Shown here: piece after piece, positions 7,144 through 14,523 of the stretch
Position numbering within the stretch: position 1 is the stretch's first letter
Layout: every line of letters starts with the position of its first letter
NCBI RefSeq assembly: GCF_900107175.1
Contig: NZ_FNOZ01000001.1
Span: 62,001-126,000 of the forward strand
From: Modestobacter sp. DSM 44400
Lineage (GTDB): Bacteria > Actinomycetota > Actinomycetes > Mycobacteriales > Geodermatophilaceae
Direction: 5' to 3'
DNA: 64,000 bases
Notes under the pieces: generated by a model
What the model was told of the DNA's origin: nothing
Database searches by the model: none
The model's input: only the letters and a program-made list of their open reading frames with translations
Program-made: the position numbers and the translations under genes

Positions 7144-7402
7144 GTGGACAGGTGCACACGGACAGTGGAACGACGCGCGCCGGGGTCCCCCGACCGGTGG
7201 ACCGTCCACAGCCGCCGTGGGGAGGTCGGCGCAGGTGGAGGCCGGGTGAGGCGCTACCGGCGGGCGCCGCCGGGCCTTCTCTCCCGGGGCGGTGCACAGG
7301 GACACACCGACAGGTCCCCACGGTGTCCACACCGCTGTCCACAGCTTGTGGGAACCGGTCCTGGACGGTCCGCACCTGGGTCGTCCAGACCGGCCTGTGG
7401 AC
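7144..7402. promoter_or_regulatory. cluster of GTCCACA motifs in a divergent gap
   Basis: The 353-bp gap between the M48-like gene and the E1-like gene holds no recognisable gene. It carries four copies of GTCCACA (7204-7210, 7325-7331 and 7337-7343 on plus, 7396-7402 on minus) plus TGTCCAC at 7144-7150 on minus. Two read GTGTCCACA and CTGTCCACA, one mismatch from the actinobacterial DnaA box TTGTCCACA. They could be DnaA-type sites or operators for the flanking divergent genes. Confidence 0.4.
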
Positions 7403-7444
7403 GGCGCCCCGTCCGGACCGGTCCGTCCTGGCACCCTGCCAACG

Positions 7445-8533
7445 GTGACCGAGAGCCCGCACCCGCTGCTGCCGCCCGCCACCCCGGTCCTGCGCCTGGA
7501 CGGCCGGACGCTGCAGGTGGGCGGGGTCGACGGGCGCAGCGGCGTCCGCGTGCACCCGGCCGGGCCGGACGTGGGGCAGCTGCTCGCCGGGCTGGACGGC
7601 CGGCGCAGCGAGCGGGCGGTGCGCGCCCAGGCCACCGCCGAGGGCGTGCCCGCCGGCGTGGTCGACGACCTGCTGGCCGGGCTCCGGGCCGGAGGGCTGC
7701 TCTCCGACCTGGCGGCCGCCGACCTGCTCGCCACCGACCCCGGCCCGGCCGCCGCGGCCCGGGCCTCGACCGAGCTGCCCGCGGCGGCGACCGGTCCCGG
7801 CGGCGCCGGACGCTGGCACGCCCGCCGGCTGAGCGCCGTGGTCATCGACGGGGCCACCCGCGTTGGCGCACCGCTGGCCGCGGTGCTCGCGGCCAGCGGC
7901 GTCGGCCGGGTGCACGTCCGCGACCGCGGAGCAGCCACCGCTGCCGACGCGGTGGTCGGCGGGGTGAGCGCCGCCGACGAGGGCCGGCCGCGGGCGCTGG
8001 CCGCCGCGGACGCCGTGCGCCGCGCCAACCCGCTCACCGACCTGCGCCCGCTGCCGACCGACCAGGCACCGGACCTGGTCGTGCTCTGCCGGCCGTGGGC
8101 TGCGGTCGACCCACTGCACGTGTCACTGCACCGCGACGGCGTCCCCCACCTGGTGGCCACCGTGCGCGGTGAGACCGGCGTCGTGGGGCCGCTGGTGCTG
8201 CCTGGCACGACCAGTTGCCTGCGCTGCGCCGACGCCCACCGCCGGGACGACGACCCGGCCTGGCCGCGGCTGGCCGCCCAGCTGGCCGCCGCGGACCCGG
8301 TGCCCAGCGGCTCGACCGTCACCTGCCTGCTGACCGCGGCGACCGCGGCGGTCCAGGTGCTCGCCCACCTCGACGGCGCCGCGGCGCCGGCGGTGCTGGA
8401 GGCGACCCTGGAGCTGCGCCTTCCCGGCCCGCTGCCGGTGCTCCGCCGCTGGCCAGCGCACCCCGCGTGCCCGTGCGGTGCGGCCGCTGCCCGCATGGCA
8501 GGCCGGCAGAGGGGACAATGTCCTCGTGAGTGA
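7445..8533 (+). CDS. E1-like TOMM cyclodehydratase-type protein, orphan
   Basis: 362 residues. The first 90 resemble a small winged-helix RiPP recognition element (three short strands, then helices; my reading). The remainder looks like the ThiF/E1-like fold seen in TIGR03882 bacteriocin cyclodehydratase proteins, with a zinc tetracysteine made of C258-x2-C261 and C342-x-C344. The adenylating ATP loop is not obvious ([21 protein letters not shown] is a weakened Rossmann loop). Rv3196 lies here in M. tuberculosis. No YcaO partner gene lies nearby. The stop overlaps the next start by 8 nt, so it is translationally linked to the ABC1 kinase. Confidence 0.75.
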
Positions 8534-9848
8534 CACCGGTCGGGACATCCCCCGGGGGGCGGCGTCCCGGACGGCGAGGCTGGCTTCCCTCCCGCTCGGG
8601 GCTGCGGGACGAGCCACCCTCGGCATCGGCAAGCGACTGTCGGGTCGCCCGGCGGAGGAGGTCAATGCCGAGCTGCAGCAACGGACGGCCGAACAGCTGT
8701 TCGCCGTGCTGGGACAGCTCAAGGGCGGGGCGATGAAGCTCGGGCAGACGCTGTCGGTCTTCGAGGCCGCGGTGCCCGAGGAAGTCGCCGGGCCCTACCG
8801 CGAGGCGCTGACCAAGCTGCAGGAGGCGGCGCCGCCGATGCCGGTCCGCACTGTGCACGCGGTGCTGGCCCAGCAGCTCGGCGGTCGGTGGCGCGAGCGG
8901 TTCCGTGAGTTCGACGACGCCCCGGCCGCGGCAGCCAGCATCGGCCAGGTACACCGGGCGACCTGGCACGACGGCCGGGACGTCGCGGTGAAGATCCAGT
9001 ACCCGGGCGCCGGCACCGCGCTGATGGCCGACCTCAACCAACTGGCCCGGTTCGCCCGACTGTTCGCCGCGCTGTTCCCCGGCATGGAGGTCAAGCCGCT
9101 GATCGCCGAGCTCAAGGCGCGGGTGGTCGAGGAGCTCGACTACGTCCTGGAGGCCGACTCCCAGCGGGCCTTCGCCGCCGCCTACGCCGACGACGACCAG
9201 ATCGTCGTACCGCGGGTGGTGGCCAGCGCGCCGAAGGTGATCGTCTCGGAGTGGCTGGACGGCATCCCGCTGTCCCGGATCATCGCCGCCGGCACCCAGG
9301 AACAGCGCGACCGCGCCGGGCTGCTGATGGCGGTGCTGCACTTCTCCGGCCCCGAGCGGGCCGGGCTGCTGCACGCCGACCCGCATCCGGGCAACTTCCG
9401 GCTGGTCCCCGACGGCCGGCTCGGCGTCATCGACTTCGGCGCGACCGCGCGGCTGCCCGACGGGCACCCCGAGCCGATCGGCCGGTTGGTGCGCTGGGCG
9501 CTGGAGGGCCGCGCCGAGGACGTGCTCGCCGACCTCCGCGCGGAGGGATTCGTCCGGCCCTCCATCGAGGTCGACGCCCAAGGGGTCCTCGACTACCTGC
9601 TGCCGCTGCTGGCCCCGGTCGCCGCGCCGACCTTCCAGTTCAACCGGGCCTGGATGCAGGAGCAGGCCGTGCGGATCGGCGACCCGCGCAGCGACGCCAG
9701 CCGGCTGGGCCGCCAGCTGAACCTGCCGCCGGCCTACCTGCTCATCCATCGGGTGACCATCGGATCGATCGGCGTGCTGTGCCAGCTCGACGCTCGGGCC
9801 CCCTACCGGGGTGTGTGCGAGGAGTGGCTGCCCGGCTTCGCCGGCTGA
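8526..9848 (+). CDS. ABC1/UbiB-family atypical kinase (AarF-like)
   Basis: 440 residues. UbiB-family hallmarks are all present: KLGQ at 71-74 (KxGQ motif), the Ala-rich loop with ASIGQ at 136-140, the VAVK lysine (155), [11 protein letters not shown] as the catalytic loop and VIDFGA as the metal-binding loop. Members have ATPase/lipid-linked roles, often in quinone or lipid homeostasis. Rv3197 is the positional counterpart. GTG 8526 is the likely start, with GAGGGG about 11 nt upstream and an 8-nt overlap with the preceding gene. Confidence 0.9.
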
Positions 9849-10286: not shown

Positions 10287-10625
10287 TCACGCCGCTGCCT
10301 CGGCGGTGACCTTCCGGGGGCGGCCCCGCGGCCGCTTGCGGGCGATCACGGCGCCGCGGTCGAAGATCTCCCCACCCCAGACGCCCCAGGGCTCGGCCCG
10401 GTCCAGCGCGCCGGCCAGGCAGGCGCTCCGAACCGGGCACTCGATGCACAGCGTCTTGGCGTGCTCGAGCTGGGCGGGGCTCTCCGCGAACCACAGGTCC
10501 GGGTCCTCGACCCGGCAGGGCAGCGCCCGTCGGGCCGGCGCCGGCTGGAGCTCCCCCGTGGACGCGTGCGTGCGGTCGAGTGCGGGCCGGCGCTGGGACG
10601 CCGGTCGCTCGATCGTGTGCTGCAC
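10287..10625 (-). CDS. whiB7: WhiB7 antibiotic-resistance regulator
   Basis: 112 residues. The four [4Fe-4S] cysteines are C37, C60, C63 and C69, followed by the GVWGGE turn (81-86) and a C-terminal AT-hook RPRGRPRK (98-105), the combination that separates WhiB7 from other Wbl proteins. WhiB7 binds sigma-A region 4 and activates intrinsic resistance genes after ribosome stress. The start is GTG 10625 behind GAGGAGGAG. The leader carries an ORF and an attenuator (see separate entries). Neighbouring uvrD2 and the ABC1 gene match the M. tuberculosis Rv3197A context. Confidence 0.96.
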   Translation of the reverse strand: MQHTIERPASQRRPALDRTHASTGELQPAPARRALPCRVEDPDLWFAESPAQLEHAKTLCIECPVRSACLAGALDRAEPWGVWGGEIFDRGAVIARKRPRGRPRKVTAEAAA

Positions 10626-10656
10626 GGCCGCTCCTCCTCTTCTTCCTCGGTTGCGA

Positions 10657-10683
10657 CCGGTCGACGGGGGCCCCGCCGACCGG
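10657..10683 (-). promoter_or_regulatory. leader hairpin just upstream of the whiB7 RBS
   Basis: Two 13-nt arms (CCGGTCGGCGGGG and CCCCGTCGACCGG on the minus strand), with one G-U pair and almost no loop, fold 10 nt before the purine-rich ribosome binding region. It could be the alternative partner in the leader or limit access to the RBS. Confidence 0.5.
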
Positions 10684-10710
10684 AAGTCGGGTGGAGTCCG
10701 CGGCGGACGA

Positions 10711-10754
10711 GGAAAGACGAAGGCCGCGGATCCCGGTGTCCGGGTTCCGCGGCC
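10711..10754 (-). terminator. intrinsic attenuator in the whiB7 leader
   Basis: On the minus strand GGCCGCGGA-A-CCCGG, loop ACA, then CCGGG-A-TCCGCGGCC forms a 14-pair stem with one A-A mismatch. TTCGTCTTTCC follows as a T-rich run, unusual in this genome. It lies between the leader ORF stop and the whiB7 start, so read-through must be regulated for whiB7 to be made. Terminators in wblC/whiB7 leaders are known from Streptomyces and mycobacteria. Confidence 0.85.
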
Positions 10755-10768
10755 TCGAGGAGGACCAG

Positions 10769-10785
10769 CTGAGCTGCTAGCTCAG
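10769..10785 (-). promoter_or_regulatory. stem-loop carrying the leader ORF stop codon
   Basis: CTGAGCT-AGC-AGCTCAG is a perfect 7-bp stem. The TAG stop of the 109-codon leader ORF spans the end of the 5' arm and the loop. A ribosome stalled at the end of the ORF would melt this stem 15 nt before the attenuator starts. Confidence 0.65.
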
Positions 10786-11106
10786 TGGGTCCCTCGGGGG
10801 CAGGTCACCCGGGGTGCAGCTGGTGGTGCGGTGCGCGTTACAGCCCTGGTAGCCGTCCAGAACGACGACGCCGATCTCCTGCTCGAAGGAGATGCCGGCG
10901 GAGTCGGTGCTGGTGATGTCGAGGGCATCGGCCGGGACCCGGGGGCGGAGGGTGGTCGTGCCGGCGAAGGGCAGGCCGGTCCCGTCCAACGGAGCGGCGG
11001 ACGACGGTGCCGTGCGGACGACCCCGCGCGGGGACGGGCACACGACGACAGCCGGCGTCGGGGCCGCGCCCGCCGCACCGGTCATGGTGATGTCGGTGCT
11101 GCTCAT
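10777..11106 (-). CDS. 109-residue leader ORF of the whiB7 transcript
   Basis: ATG 11106 has an excellent Shine-Dalgarno (AAGGAGG, 7-nt spacing), so this is very likely translated. I recognise no family. The protein is Thr/Ala/Pro-rich with three Cys, one near residue 23 and two near the end (GCNAHRTTSC), and ends in PPRDPLS. Its stop lies inside a small hairpin just before the attenuator, and its promoter is about 107 nt upstream of the ATG. It is probably the regulatory upstream ORF of whiB7. Most leader ORFs are shorter, so an independent protein is also possible. Confidence 0.65.
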   Translation of the reverse strand: MSSTDITMTGAAGAAPTPAVVVCPSPRGVVRTAPSSAAPLDGTGLPFAGTTTLRPRVPADALDITSTDSAGISFEQEIGVVVLDGYQGCNAHRTTSCTPGDLPPRDPLS

Positions 11107-11219
11107 GGGGTCCCCTCCTTCCGGGGTCGAAGTACGGCCTGCCGGCCGCGCTCCCTGTGTCTGCCTGTCCGTGCCTTGCTCGGGTGGTGCTCCTGGTCAC
11201 TCCCAGGTGGTGTGCTCGA

Positions 11220-11249
11220 AGGCTAGGCGAGGTCCCCGAGCCGGGTCAA
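11220..11249 (-). promoter_or_regulatory. sigma-A promoter for the leader ORF and whiB7
   Basis: On the minus strand TTGACC, an 18-nt spacer and TAGCCT make the best -35/-10 pair in the window, preceded by the AT-rich TTAATT. The start site would be near 11213, giving a leader of about 590 nt before whiB7. Confidence 0.65.
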
Positions 11250-11323
11250 CGCAATTAACGGCAGTTCCCTGGAACGGGCGTGTCGACGGCGTCCGCGCAG
11301 CTCGACGACCCGTCGGTCCGGCC

Positions 11324-13345
11324 TCAGTCGGCGAGGGTGGCGAGCACGTCCTCGCCATAGAGCTCGAGCTTGCGAGCGCCGATCCCCGGCAGCCCGGACA
11401 GCTCCCGCAGCGACCCCGGTCGGGCCTCGGCGACCGCCTGCAGCGTGGCGTCGGTGAAGACGACGTAGGCCGGCACCGACGCGGCGGTGGCCGTGCTGCT
11501 GCGCCAGGCGCGCAGCCGCTCGAACCGTTCTCCCGCCTCCCCCTCCAAAACGACCTTGGGGCGCTTGGCCGACCGTTTGGCCAGGGGCGCGCCGTCCGGG
11601 GCCAGGCCGTCGAGGAACCGGCTCCGCGGGCGGGACCGGCGTCCGCCGGGGTTGCGCGCCAGCGACCAGGACAGCGTGAGCTGCTCCCGGGCGCGGGTGA
11701 CCGCCACGTAGAGCAGCCGGCGCTCCTCCTCCACCGCATCGGGCCGGCTCTGCGACTGGGCGATCGGCAGCACTCCGTCGACCAGGCCGACGACGAACAC
11801 CGCATCCCACTCCAGGCCCTTGGCCGCGTGCATCGAGGCGAGCGTGACCCCCTGCACCGTCGGAGCGTGCTGGGCGCCGGCCCGCTCGGCGAGGTGGGCC
11901 ACAAAGCCGCCCAGGTCCAGCGTCGGCTCCTCGGCGACCAGATCGACCGCCAGGTCGACCAGCGCGGCCAGGGACTGCCAGCGGTCGCGGGCCGCGCCCC
12001 CGGCGGACGGGCGGTGCTCCACCCAGCCGGTGGAGGCCAGGACGTCGCGCACCGTCGGCACCAGCGCCCCCGGCTCGCTGCCCCCGGCCGCGGCGCCGCG
12101 CAGCAGCAGCACCGCCTCACGCACCTCGGGCCGTTCGAAGAAGCGCTCGCTGCCCTTGAGGACGTAGGGCACGCCGACGTCGGTGAGCGCGGACTCGTAC
12201 ACCTGGGACTGGGCGTTGATCCGGAACAGCACGGCGATCTCGCTGGCGGGCAGCCCGCCGTCCACCAGCTCCCGGCAGGCGCGGGCCACCGCGGCTGCCT
12301 CGGCCGGCTCGTCGGGGTGCTCGACGAACCGCGGTTCGACGCTGTCGCGCCGCTGGCCCAGCAGGCGCAGGCCGGGCAGGCCCTTGCGCGGCGTGGCCTG
12401 GCCGATCAACTTGTTCGCCAGCCCGACCACCTGCGGGGTGGAGCGGTAGTCGCGCTCGAGCTTGACCACCTCGGCGTCGGGATAGCGGTCGGCGAAGCCG
12501 AGCAGGTAGTCAGGGTCGGCCCCGGTGAAGGAGTAGATCGTCTGGTTGGGGTCGCCGACCACGCAGACCTCGGCCCGGCCGCCGAGCCAGGCGTCCAGCA
12601 GCCGCTGCTGCAGCGGGTTGACGTCCTGGTACTCGTCGACGACGAAGTACCGGTACTGGCCGCGCACTTCCCGGGCGACGTCCCGGTGCTCCTCCAGGGC
12701 GTAGGCGGTGACCAGTAGGAGGTCCTCGAAGTCCAGCGAGCCGTCGCGCTGCTTGGCTGCCTCGTAGCTGCGGTAGACCTCGGCGACCGCGGCCGCCTCG
12801 AAAGGTGCCTCGCGGCCGGCCGCCTTCGCCCGGGCGGGGTAGTCCTCCGGCGTCGCGAGCGTGGTCTTGGCCCACTCGATCTCGCTGGCCAGGTCACGCA
12901 GGCTGGCGCGGTCGGTGGACAGCCGAGCCCGGGACGCCGCCGCCGCGACGACCCGCAGCTTGTTCTCGATCAGTTCGGGCATCGGGCCGCCGAGCACGCG
13001 CGGGGCGAAGTAGCGCAGCTGACGCATCGCCGCGGCGTGGAAGGTGCGCGCCTGCACCCCGCCCACACCCAGCGCCGACAACCGACTGCGCAGCTCCCCG
13101 GCGGCCCGCGCGGTGAACGTCACCGCCAGCACCTGCTCGGGGACGTAGACACCGGTGTGCACCCCGTAGGCGATCCGGTGGGTGATCGTGCGGGTCTTCC
13201 CGGTGCCGGCACCGGCCAGGATGCAGACCGGGCCCTGAACGGCGGAGGCAGCCGCCCGCTGCTGCTCGTCCAACCCGGCGAGCACCTGCTCGGCGGCACC
13301 CGCGGCGTCGGCGTCCGACTGATGGTCGATCTGCGGCATCCCCAC
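11324..13345 (-). CDS. uvrD2: UvrD2-type SF1A DNA helicase with HRDC domain
   Basis: 673 residues. Walker A is AGAGTGKT (about 44-51); VDEYQDVNPLQ is motif II, GDPNQTIYSFTGAD motif III and LERDYRSTPQVV motif IV. A C-terminal HRDC domain covers about 605-673. The mycobacterial protein carries a tetracysteine motif between motor and HRDC. Here that linker has no cysteine. The enzyme unwinds 3'-tailed DNA in repair. I chose GTG 13345, 9 nt after GGAGG; ATG 13339 is possible. Confidence 0.93.
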   Translation of the reverse strand: MGMPQIDHQSDADAAGAAEQVLAGLDEQQRAAASAVQGPVCILAGAGTGKTRTITHRIAYGVHTGVYVPEQVLAVTFTARAAGELRSRLSALGVGGVQARTFHAAAMRQLRYFAPRVLGGPMPELIENKLRVVAAAASRARLSTDRASLRDLASEIEWAKTTLATPEDYPARAKAAGREAPFEAAAVAEVYRSYEAAKQRDGSLDFEDLLLVTAYALEEHRDVAREVRGQYRYFVVDEYQDVNPLQQRLLDAWLGGRAEVCVVGDPNQTIYSFTGADPDYLLGFADRYPDAEVVKLERDYRSTPQVVGLANKLIGQATPRKGLPGLRLLGQRRDSVEPRFVEHPDEPAEAAAVARACRELVDGGLPASEIAVLFRINAQSQVYESALTDVGVPYVLKGSERFFERPEVREAVLLLRGAAAGGSEPGALVPTVRDVLASTGWVEHRPSAGGAARDRWQSLAALVDLAVDLVAEEPTLDLGGFVAHLAERAGAQHAPTVQGVTLASMHAAKGLEWDAVFVVGLVDGVLPIAQSQSRPDAVEEERRLLYVAVTRAREQLTLSWSLARNPGGRRSRPRSRFLDGLAPDGAPLAKRSAKRPKVVLEGEAGERFERLRAWRSSTATAASVPAYVVFTDATLQAVAEARPGSLRELSGLPGIGARKLELYGEDVLATLAD

Positions 13346-13483
13346 GGACCTGATCCTCCCAGCCGCCCCCGCCGTCCGGGGGGAAGCATCCCCAGGCGCC
13401 CGGCGTTGGAGACCTCGGGCCGGCGCCGGGCCATCCGCCCCCCGGGTGGCCGCTGCCGACCGGAACGAGAGAGGATCGTCCTG

Positions 13484-13747
13484 ATGAGCACTCCCGGGAC
13501 TGCCGTGACCATGTACACCACGAGCTGGTGCGGGTACTGCGTGCGGCTGAAGAAGCTGATGCAGCGCGAGGGCATCGAGTACGGAGAGGTCAACATCGAG
13601 CTCGACGAGGGCGCCGCCGAGCTGGTCATGAAGGCCAACGGCGGGAATCAGACGGTGCCGACGCTCGTCTTTGCCGACGGGAGCGCGCTCACCAACCCCA
13701 GCATCGACCAGGTGAAGTCCCAGCTCGCGGGTCTGCCGGGCGCATGA
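13484..13747 (+). CDS. mrx1: mycoredoxin-1 (glutaredoxin-like)
   Basis: 87 residues with a thioredoxin fold. The redox motif is WCGYC (Cys16, Cys19), and cis-proline TVPT and the GSALTNPS loop match mycoredoxins. Mrx1 reduces mycothiol-mixed disulfides, using mycothiol in place of glutathione. ATG 13484 has GAGAGG 9 nt upstream. It is divergent from uvrD2, as Rv3198A is from Rv3198c. Confidence 0.93.
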   Translation: MSTPGTAVTMYTTSWCGYCVRLKKLMQREGIEYGEVNIELDEGAAELVMKANGGNQTVPTLVFADGSALTNPSIDQVKSQLAGLPGA

Positions 13748-13854
13748 TCCCCGGCCCCCGGCCGCTGGCGGGCGACGACCGCCCCCAAGGTTGCTGTGGG
13801 AGTCTCCCGTGCGACGACGCGCCGGCGGCCCCGCCGGCACGGAGGGAGGGTGCG

Positions 13855-14523
13855 GTGAGCGAGACGGTCCGTGGTACGTCGGCGACGTCCGCACCGGCGG
13901 ACGCGTGGCCGGACGACGTCGTCCGCACCCCCGACGGGCTGCCGGCCGTGGTGCTGGTGCGCACTGCTCGGGGCTGGACCCCGCTGCACCCCGCCGAGCA
14001 GCTGGGCGATCTGCCCCTGGTGGAGGGGATGACGCTGGCCGACCTCGTCGCCGAGGAGGCCGGAGCGGTCCCCGAGCCCGGCCGGCAGGCGCGGCTGGCC
14101 GCCCGCAAGGGCCCGGCGCCCGACGCCCCCACCGAGGTCCCCGACCCGAGGGACGCCGAGCTGGCCGAGCTCCGTCGCACCGTCGGCCAGCTGGAGCACG
14201 CCCTGGCCGCGCGGGTCTCGATCGAGCGGGCCATCGGCGTGCTCGCCGAGCGGCACGGCTCCTCCCCGCGCGAGGCCTTCGACGAGCTACGCCGCCGCGC
14301 CCGCGCCCAGGGGCGCCCGGCGCAGGAACTGGCCCGCGAGGTGCTCGACGGACTGCCTGCCCGGGCCGCCGTCCCCGGCCAGCGGACGACGTCAGACCCC
14401 GCGCACGACCACCGCCCGACCGCCGACACGCTCCCGGGGCCGCGGCCGCCCACGGTCCGCCGCGTGACCCGCCGTCCCCGGCCGGCCGCCAGCCCCGGCA
14501 CCGGGGCGGAGGCGCACAACTGA
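13855..14523 (+). CDS. ANTAR-domain RNA-binding regulator
   Basis: 222 residues. The ANTAR three-helix domain spans about 105-160: VSIERAIGVLAERHG, then AFDELRRRAR and a final helix. ANTAR proteins bind paired hexaloop RNA hairpins and prevent transcription termination. The N-terminal region (about 15-75) is not a clear PAS or GAF sensor, and the C-terminal 60 residues are Pro/Arg-rich and disordered. GTG 13855 follows GGAGGGAGGG. The stop overlaps the next gene. Confidence 0.82.
   Translation: MSETVRGTSATSAPADAWPDDVVRTPDGLPAVVLVRTARGWTPLHPAEQLGDLPLVEGMTLADLVAEEAGAVPEPGRQARLAARKGPAPDAPTEVPDPRDAELAELRRTVGQLEHALAARVSIERAIGVLAERHGSSPREAFDELRRRARAQGRPAQELAREVLDGLPARAAVPGQRTTSDPAHDHRPTADTLPGPRPPTVRRVTRRPRPAASPGTGAEAHN

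Follow-up and report, generated by a model that had tools for sequence, protein, structure and literature searches.

A whiB7 leader of the Geodermatophilaceae as a probable uORF-mediated transcription attenuator with a candidate macrolide-arrest motif

Attenuators at whiB7/wblC genes that operate through an upstream open reading frame (uORF) were reportedly described by Burian and Thompson in 2018 and by Lee, Lee and Roe in 2022. WhiB7 controls intrinsic resistance to ribosome drugs in actinomycetes, many of which its uORF senses. In the published scheme, a uORF and a terminator are accompanied by an anti-terminator whose sequence overlaps the two (PMC10727445). The leader we analyzed resembles the known whiB7/wblC attenuators, as excerpts of three accounts present them (PMC10727445, PMC11550727, PMC13393426), in having a long uORF leader, a terminator, an overlapping anti-terminator and an AT-rich box 5' of the -35 element. 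In a paper of 2025, stalling of ribosomes by antibiotics inside this uORF is described as untested (PMC12121999).

Likenesses extend to other regulatory peptides. Passages on the Bacillus subtilis tlrB (yxjB) leader (PMC6851288) describe macrolide arrest at a +X+ motif (R-Y-R in tlrB), transcription attenuation and a pause that synchronizes RNA polymerase with the ribosome. In tlrB, however, the motif is C-terminal in the leader peptide, the stalled ribosome itself blocks termination, and pausing is NusG-dependent and occurs between leader peptide and gene, whereas in the leader described here the motif is in mid-uORF, induction would use an anti-terminator and pausing is putative. ErmDL, according to parts of PMC8298421, likewise carries an R-L-R macrolide/ketolide arrest motif in a regulatory peptide, but at codons 6-8 of a short peptide controlling ermD; here the motif lies far inside a long uORF, and the control would be of transcription. 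The ilvB1 attenuator of Mycobacterium tuberculosis, in the portions of PMC13236596 that describe it, shares the use of a uORF, an upstream stall that leads to an anti-terminator and a ribosome at the stop codon that leads to a terminator, but is proposed to sense branched-chain amino acids via specific codons in a short leader.

The window, meaning the whole 64,000-nucleotide stretch of DNA that was analyzed, comes from a 5.0 Mb genome. On the minus strand a promoter is followed by a uORF of 109 codons, then by the stop-codon stem, the terminator and a third hairpin, and finally by whiB7. The original prediction, made from the sequence alone, had named all of these parts, including the Shine-Dalgarno (SD) sequence that leads the ORF, and each was found where it had been placed. 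The features are as follows.

11253..11258, minus strand: AT-rich box TTAATT, 3 nt 5' of the -35; candidate WhiB7 autoregulation site (sequence)
11220..11249 (read 11249-11220), minus strand: promoter TTGACC-18-TAGCCT (sequence, family comparison)
11107..11122, minus strand: uORF Shine-Dalgarno region GGAAGGAGGGGACCCC (sequence)
10777..11106, minus strand: regulatory uORF, ATG start, 109 codons and stop (ORF call, family conservation)
10969..10983, minus strand: GTGLP element GGGACCGGCCTGCCC, uORF codons 42-46; putatively pause-like (nucleotide conservation)
10939..10947, minus strand: R54-P55-R56, motif of the +X+ macrolide-arrest type (motif enrichment)
10740..10812, minus strand: predicted anti-terminator hairpin (folding)
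10769..10785 (read 10785-10769), minus strand: stop-codon stem CTGAGCT-AGC-AGCTCAG, the tip of the anti-terminator (sequence, folding)
10722..10754, minus strand: hairpin of the intrinsic terminator, 14 pairs with a single A.A mismatch (sequence, folding)
10721-10711, minus strand: T-rich run 3' of the terminator, an imperfect U-run (sequence)
10657..10683 (read 10683-10657), minus strand: third hairpin (sequence, family comparison)
10639-10631, minus strand: SD-like sequence of whiB7, GAGGAGGAG (sequence)
10287..10625, minus strand: whiB7, GTG start, encoding a WhiB protein (Pfam WhiB, E 2.9e-16)

The sequence GGAAGGAGGGG stands directly 5' of the uORF ATG. When folded, the nascent RNA of the window forms one long hairpin (10812-10740) in which the last ~11 uORF codons, in the tail at 10812-10780, pair with the terminator 5' arm (10754-10740) and the stop codon lies near the apical loop; the 7-bp stop-codon stem noted earlier is present, but only as the tip of this longer predicted anti-terminator. 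The terminator reads GGCCGCGGA-A-CCCGG ACA CCGGG-A-TCCGCGGCC, then TTCGTCTTTCC. Its 14 pairs and T-rich run are there as had been claimed. The U-run is an imperfect one, and no site was listed by strict terminator or sigma-70 consensus scans. The 127-nt region of stop stem and terminator folds at -63 kcal/mol (z -4.5), and 0 of 200 shuffles were equally stable. Rfam gave no family at gathering score on the leader, the sole match being a miRNA family on the plus strand (E 0.21), far under that score.

Upstream of the promoter is a long helicase-like ORF (11324-13894, minus strand), presumably of the UvrD type judging by its motifs; it shares the strand of whiB7 and ends 74 bases short of the whiB7 -35 element. 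On the plus strand an ABC1-family kinase gene (8478-9848) converges on whiB7, with macrolide-binding ATPase MABP-1 as its best NCBIfam model at 535.8 bits against a cut-off of 800, and 7292-8533 encodes a ThiF-like protein that scores 31.6 bits with a TOMM leader-binding model, short of its cut-off of 36.9.

We compared the leader with its relatives in a homologue search of 112 genomes, the family (Geodermatophilaceae) being taken as 12 genera. A whiB7 match was found in 107 family genomes, 100 of which were taken for leader analysis. The family sample comprised 105 loci, five of them second copies within a genome, and a uORF was called in 97 of the 100 genomes, the exceptions being L049, L067 (where a contig end cuts the locus) and L097. 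L057 and L058 were excluded from later sets, and 11 of 28 initial uORF matches, which did not adjoin whiB7, were dropped. Outside the family, uORFs were called by SD score and position only, so that wrong calls are possible; this gave a uORF in 49 of 51 named loci, in 58 of 60 loci of an order sample (one longer than 135 codons was excluded from the pooled motif test) and in 59 of 60 loci of a class sample (three longer than 140 codons were excluded).

The best WhiB7 match per family genome, own copy excluded, is 65-89% identical to the window's protein, in which the AT-hook-like stretch is weak (E 0.023; 14.9 bits vs a cut-off of 17.4). A promoter of the form TTGACC-17 to 19 nt-TANNNT is present in 85 of 97 family leaders, with an 18-nt spacer in 73 of these 85 and the last C of TTGACC in 84; exact TTAATT stands 3 nt 5' of the -35 in 52 of the same 85. 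A published figure legend also places the WblC box 3 nt 5' of the -35 (PMC7157823), and from its sequence and position the TTAATT box is likely a site of WhiB7 autoregulation. The locus has WhiB7 downstream, an SD-led uORF in a long leader kept in relatives, an intrinsic terminator between the two, an anti-terminator overlapping uORF and terminator (predicted by folding) and the AT-rich box. We read the leader as a transcription attenuator of the whiB7/wblC type that would be turned on by an anti-terminator when a ribosome is held upstream, and give this reading a probability of about 0.85. Anatomy, folding and family conservation support the original prediction to the extent that it proposed a whiB7 leader with a uORF and an intrinsic attenuator, a kind known to sense ribosome inhibition. 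The mechanism class is already known, and the locus adds one more whiB7/wblC uORF attenuator to it.

The anti-terminator was sought in nascent RNA spanning 50 nt 5' of the stop codon through the end of the terminator 5' arm. Each leader was folded singly because RNAalifold on a MAFFT alignment of family leaders did not recover the anti-terminator, the helix register being shifted between two sequence types. In the single folds the terminator-arm apex pairs with the uORF tail at >0.5 in 90 of 91 distinct family leaders; base-pair counts taken from these folds can mix registers. Tails shuffled with dinucleotides kept paired in this way in 241 of 1820 cases; they were weaker by a median of 11.4 kcal/mol, and 13 of the 1820 were as stable. 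Apex and tail types match: CCCGA goes with CUCGGG in 61 leaders and CCCGG with CCCGGG in 25; 2 leaders are mixed and 3 are of other types. The match may reflect only one or two evolutionary events. Exchanging tails between the types weakened pairing in one direction (mean -33.5 vs -38.2 and -40.5 for the types' own pairs), and the opposite exchange gave -42.5, stabler than the own pairs.

At equilibrium the full transcript favors the terminator by a median of 15.5 kcal/mol (92 leaders), with the terminator stem in 91 of 92 full-length folds, and the direct-path barrier from anti-terminator to terminator has a median of 11.1 kcal/mol (92 leaders). Since the terminator wins at equilibrium, the anti-terminator can act only kinetically. 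Other sampled families of the order show a similar layout: in every group the arm paired more, on average, with the real tail than with shuffled ones, though the margin was small in some (f2, 0.64 vs 0.56). The named loci were mixed: 17 of 49 had no detected terminator, and 24 of the 32 that had one paired at >0.4.

The uORF had been called unusually long, a description that does not hold: 109 codons are ordinary in the family (64-134, median 102, 97 leaders), and uORFs of the order sample (n=58) range from 48 to 148 codons. Unlike the 24 named Mycobacterium and Mycolicibacterium uORFs called here (41-67 codons), which belong to different genera and differ in sequence, it has the size of the rest of its family and of family f33 (90-109 codons, n=7). 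Across 23 independent close pairs, the uORF body differs at codon positions 1/2/3 in 229/246/214 cases (1969 codons, with a position-3 GC of 0.914, a bias that itself reduces change at position 3), compared with 32/34/130 for the whiB7 core in the same pairs (1035 codons). By this comparison the body shows no overall amino-acid constraint.

One peptide pattern in the body is nevertheless strongly enriched. [RK]x[RK], the +X+ motif, occurs in 91 of 97 family uORF bodies (it is absent from 6), compared with 31.9±4.5 for shuffled peptides, and 0 of 1000 shuffles reach the count. Other spacings are at chance ([RK][RK], 35 vs 32.3; [RK]xx[RK], 23 vs 31.8; [RK]xxx[RK], 29 vs 31.4). Its forms include RLR (57), RPR (12) and RPK (6); among 595 stretches of 85 residues from ordinary proteins of the window, [RK]x[RK] is found in 59% and RLR in 8%, the latter compared with 59% of uORF bodies. 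Among control patterns, G.G exceeds shuffles (88 vs 67.0), an excess that fits the GTG element; A.A, L.L and V.V lie close to chance, and the depleted patterns are [DE].[DE], P.P, PP and pairs of aromatic residues. After redundancy removal at 50% identity the motif remains in 19 of 21 family uORFs (shuffles 6.5±2.0; 0/1000) and in 42 of 58 from the rest of the order and the named loci (26.6±3.4; 0/1000); at 40% identity the counts are 4 of 6 in the family (54/1000 shuffles) and 12 of 16 outside it (0/1000). The class sample gives 31 of 36 non-redundant uORFs (16.4±2.6; 0/1000), the order sample alone 40 of 57 (27.0±3.5; 1/1000), and Mycobacterium 21 of 24 (5.7±1.9), with KHR in 17 of the 24. 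When five families outside the Geodermatophilaceae with at least 4 uORFs each were tested singly, the motif was enriched in f4 and f8 and not in f15, f16 and f2.

In R-L-R the wobble positions of the leading Arg and of the Leu are free, and together with the enrichment this argues for selection on [RK]x[RK] at the amino-acid level. Family motifs end 29-93 codons 5' of the stop (last 17 codons excluded), and a ribosome held there would therefore leave the anti-terminator free. In named uORFs chosen by KHR, RRR, KRR or HKR, which come from Mycobacterium and a few other sources, 22 of 24 motifs end 13-20 codons 5' of the stop, nearer the arm, and may have a different mode of action. On balance we lean slightly toward drug-induced stalling at the +X+ motif.

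The +X+ part of our reading, but not the attenuator itself, has a competitor in the view that the uORF senses overall elongation speed only, with no specific role for +X+ or GTGLP. Such a timer would agree with a body that lacks codon-position constraint and varies in length from 64 to 134 codons, and excerpts of published work report that the whiB7 uORF responds to several ribosome-drug classes (PMC12121999) and to amino-acid starvation (PMC11550727). It does not account for an enrichment of +X+ that is specific to one spacing in the family, order and class samples, nor for the free wobbles within R-L-R, and we put it well short of even odds.

The body also contains an element that is conserved at the nucleotide level. 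GGSAYNNNTNTGYCC is present in 58 of 97 uORFs of the family, 14 of 107 from the rest of the order and 14 of 59 in the class sample; shuffling codons gave means of 0.09, 0.04 and 0.04, and the reverse strand had no match. The low counts outside the family mean that the strict form is absent from most non-family uORFs. The peptide pattern of the element is matched by 12 of 59 class uORFs (0.9 expected), and because the third codon ends in T in all 12 while encoding Gly, Ser, Arg, Ala, Asp or Thr, selection acts on the nucleotides. A score matrix for the element was trained on 51 family uORFs and then applied to a family set that included them. The invariant bases fit the Escherichia coli pause logo (-10G, -1Y, +1G, as given in part of PMC10268239). 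At pause position -3 most copies carry T, but the one in the window (10983-10969) carries C. Polymerase may pause at this element, which on the sequence evidence we hold at somewhat less than an even chance. No consistent base-pairing partner was found for the GTGLP element (50 copies; paired fraction 0.70 vs 0.67 upstream). Elsewhere, the exact element has 13 matches in 7 genomes (5 in whiB7 uORFs, 7 in long open frames, 1 in a short frame), and the window's uORF copy, which differs by one base, is not among them. At L260 (G132:C70:7008) the element lies in a short open frame, MGTGVP..., outside whiB7.

Control might instead be translational, the third hairpin or another fold masking the whiB7 ribosome-binding site. 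A strong hairpin occupies the third-hairpin interval in 93 of 97 family leaders, with the CGGTCGGCGG arm in 11 of 12 inspected, and in the window it ends 17 nt 5' of the SD-like sequence. That sequence lies outside the hairpin, however, and the 75-nt stretch has no exceptional stability (z -1.33, equalled in 24 of 200 shuffles), which makes this form of control improbable.

The direction of the attenuator was modeled by masking -15 to +15 nt around a ribosome, the steric effect of a ribosome between both arms being ignored. Tail-arm pairing >0.5, seen in 90 of 91 leaders with no mask, was kept in 71 of 91 when the mask lay exactly on the stop codon and in 1 and 0 of 91 when it lay 5 or 10 codons 5' of it. 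Because these latter masks abolish pairing, a ribosome within about the last 10 codons would free the terminator and turn whiB7 off, in agreement with passages on the published whiB7/wblC scheme (PMC10727445, PMC11550727); the ON state should require a ribosome held upstream of the uORF end. The original prediction had a ribosome stalled near the uORF end melt the stop stem and alter the folding of the terminator, read here as switching whiB7 on. Its structural premise stands, in that the stop codon sits in a stem contiguous with the anti-terminator. Its direction does not fare as well: with a ribosome placed 5-10 codons 5' of the stop, the anti-terminator is lost and most of the terminator 5' arm is unpaired, giving OFF, and the family +X+ motifs outside the excluded last 17 codons end at least 29 codons 5' of the stop. 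Induction by an end-stalled ribosome is thus very improbable.

The uORF tail changes at half the rate of the body (0.057 vs 0.117 per nt), and several of its wobbles are fixed (AGC 87/87, ACC 92/92, CTC 63/64, AGA 61/65), those of Gly and Pro not being so. With these wobbles fixed, the conserved end of the uORF resembles an RNA arm and not an arrest peptide; a C-terminal arrest peptide (PPRDPLS) was rejected on the same grounds and on the identity of the segment with the anti-terminator arm. That the uORF codes for a small protein with a function of its own, or for the precursor of a modified peptide (RiPP), as its length, strong SD and the nearby ThiF-like ORF (7292-8533; TIGR03882 at 31.6 bits, under the cut-off of 36.9) might suggest, is scarcely credible, and the RiPP precursor was rejected, given a product that matches no Pfam or NCBIfam family at E up to 0.1, a body without codon-position constraint and a Cys stretch (GCNAHRTTSC) that is absent from the other aligned rows inspected (about every fourth of 97) and from the further relatives inspected.

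Under the attenuator reading, transcription would start near 11213 and a ribosome would then begin the uORF. An unhindered ribosome would occupy roughly the final 10 codons during synthesis of the terminator, opening the uORF-tail arm, so that the terminator forms and whiB7 stays off. If the ribosome were slowed or arrested upstream, the uORF tail would pair with the 5' arm of the terminator while the 3' arm has yet to emerge, and this anti-terminator would delay the terminator and let polymerase enter whiB7; WhiB7 would then raise the activity of its own promoter via the TTAATT box. The uORF body would be mostly an amino-acid-neutral track with a single stall site that is likely tuned to drugs (RPR in this leader, RLR in most family relatives), and the pause-like element 5' of that site could let the first ribosome catch up. 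Anatomy, alternative hairpins, conservation and motif enrichment come from sequence comparison and folding; the direction and timing of the switch we infer.

The literature searched (titles, abstract openings and some passages, with Lee 2022 outside coverage) held no mention of a +X+ motif or pause element in whiB7 uORFs, and the novelty of either in print is unproven. For the Actinomycetes as a whole we suggest tentatively, at barely under even odds, that whiB7/wblC uORFs carry a programmed +X+ macrolide-arrest triplet 5' of the anti-terminator, that many also carry the pause element GGSAYNNNTNTGYCC, which would load and synchronize the first ribosome, and that the remainder is an amino-acid-neutral track. 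The comparison divides an RNA-constrained tail from a free body, yields a candidate pause element and points to codons 54-56 here and to RLR, KHR or RER in other lineages. If this is true, a master regulator of intrinsic resistance would be a general elongation timer and a dedicated macrolide sensor at once.
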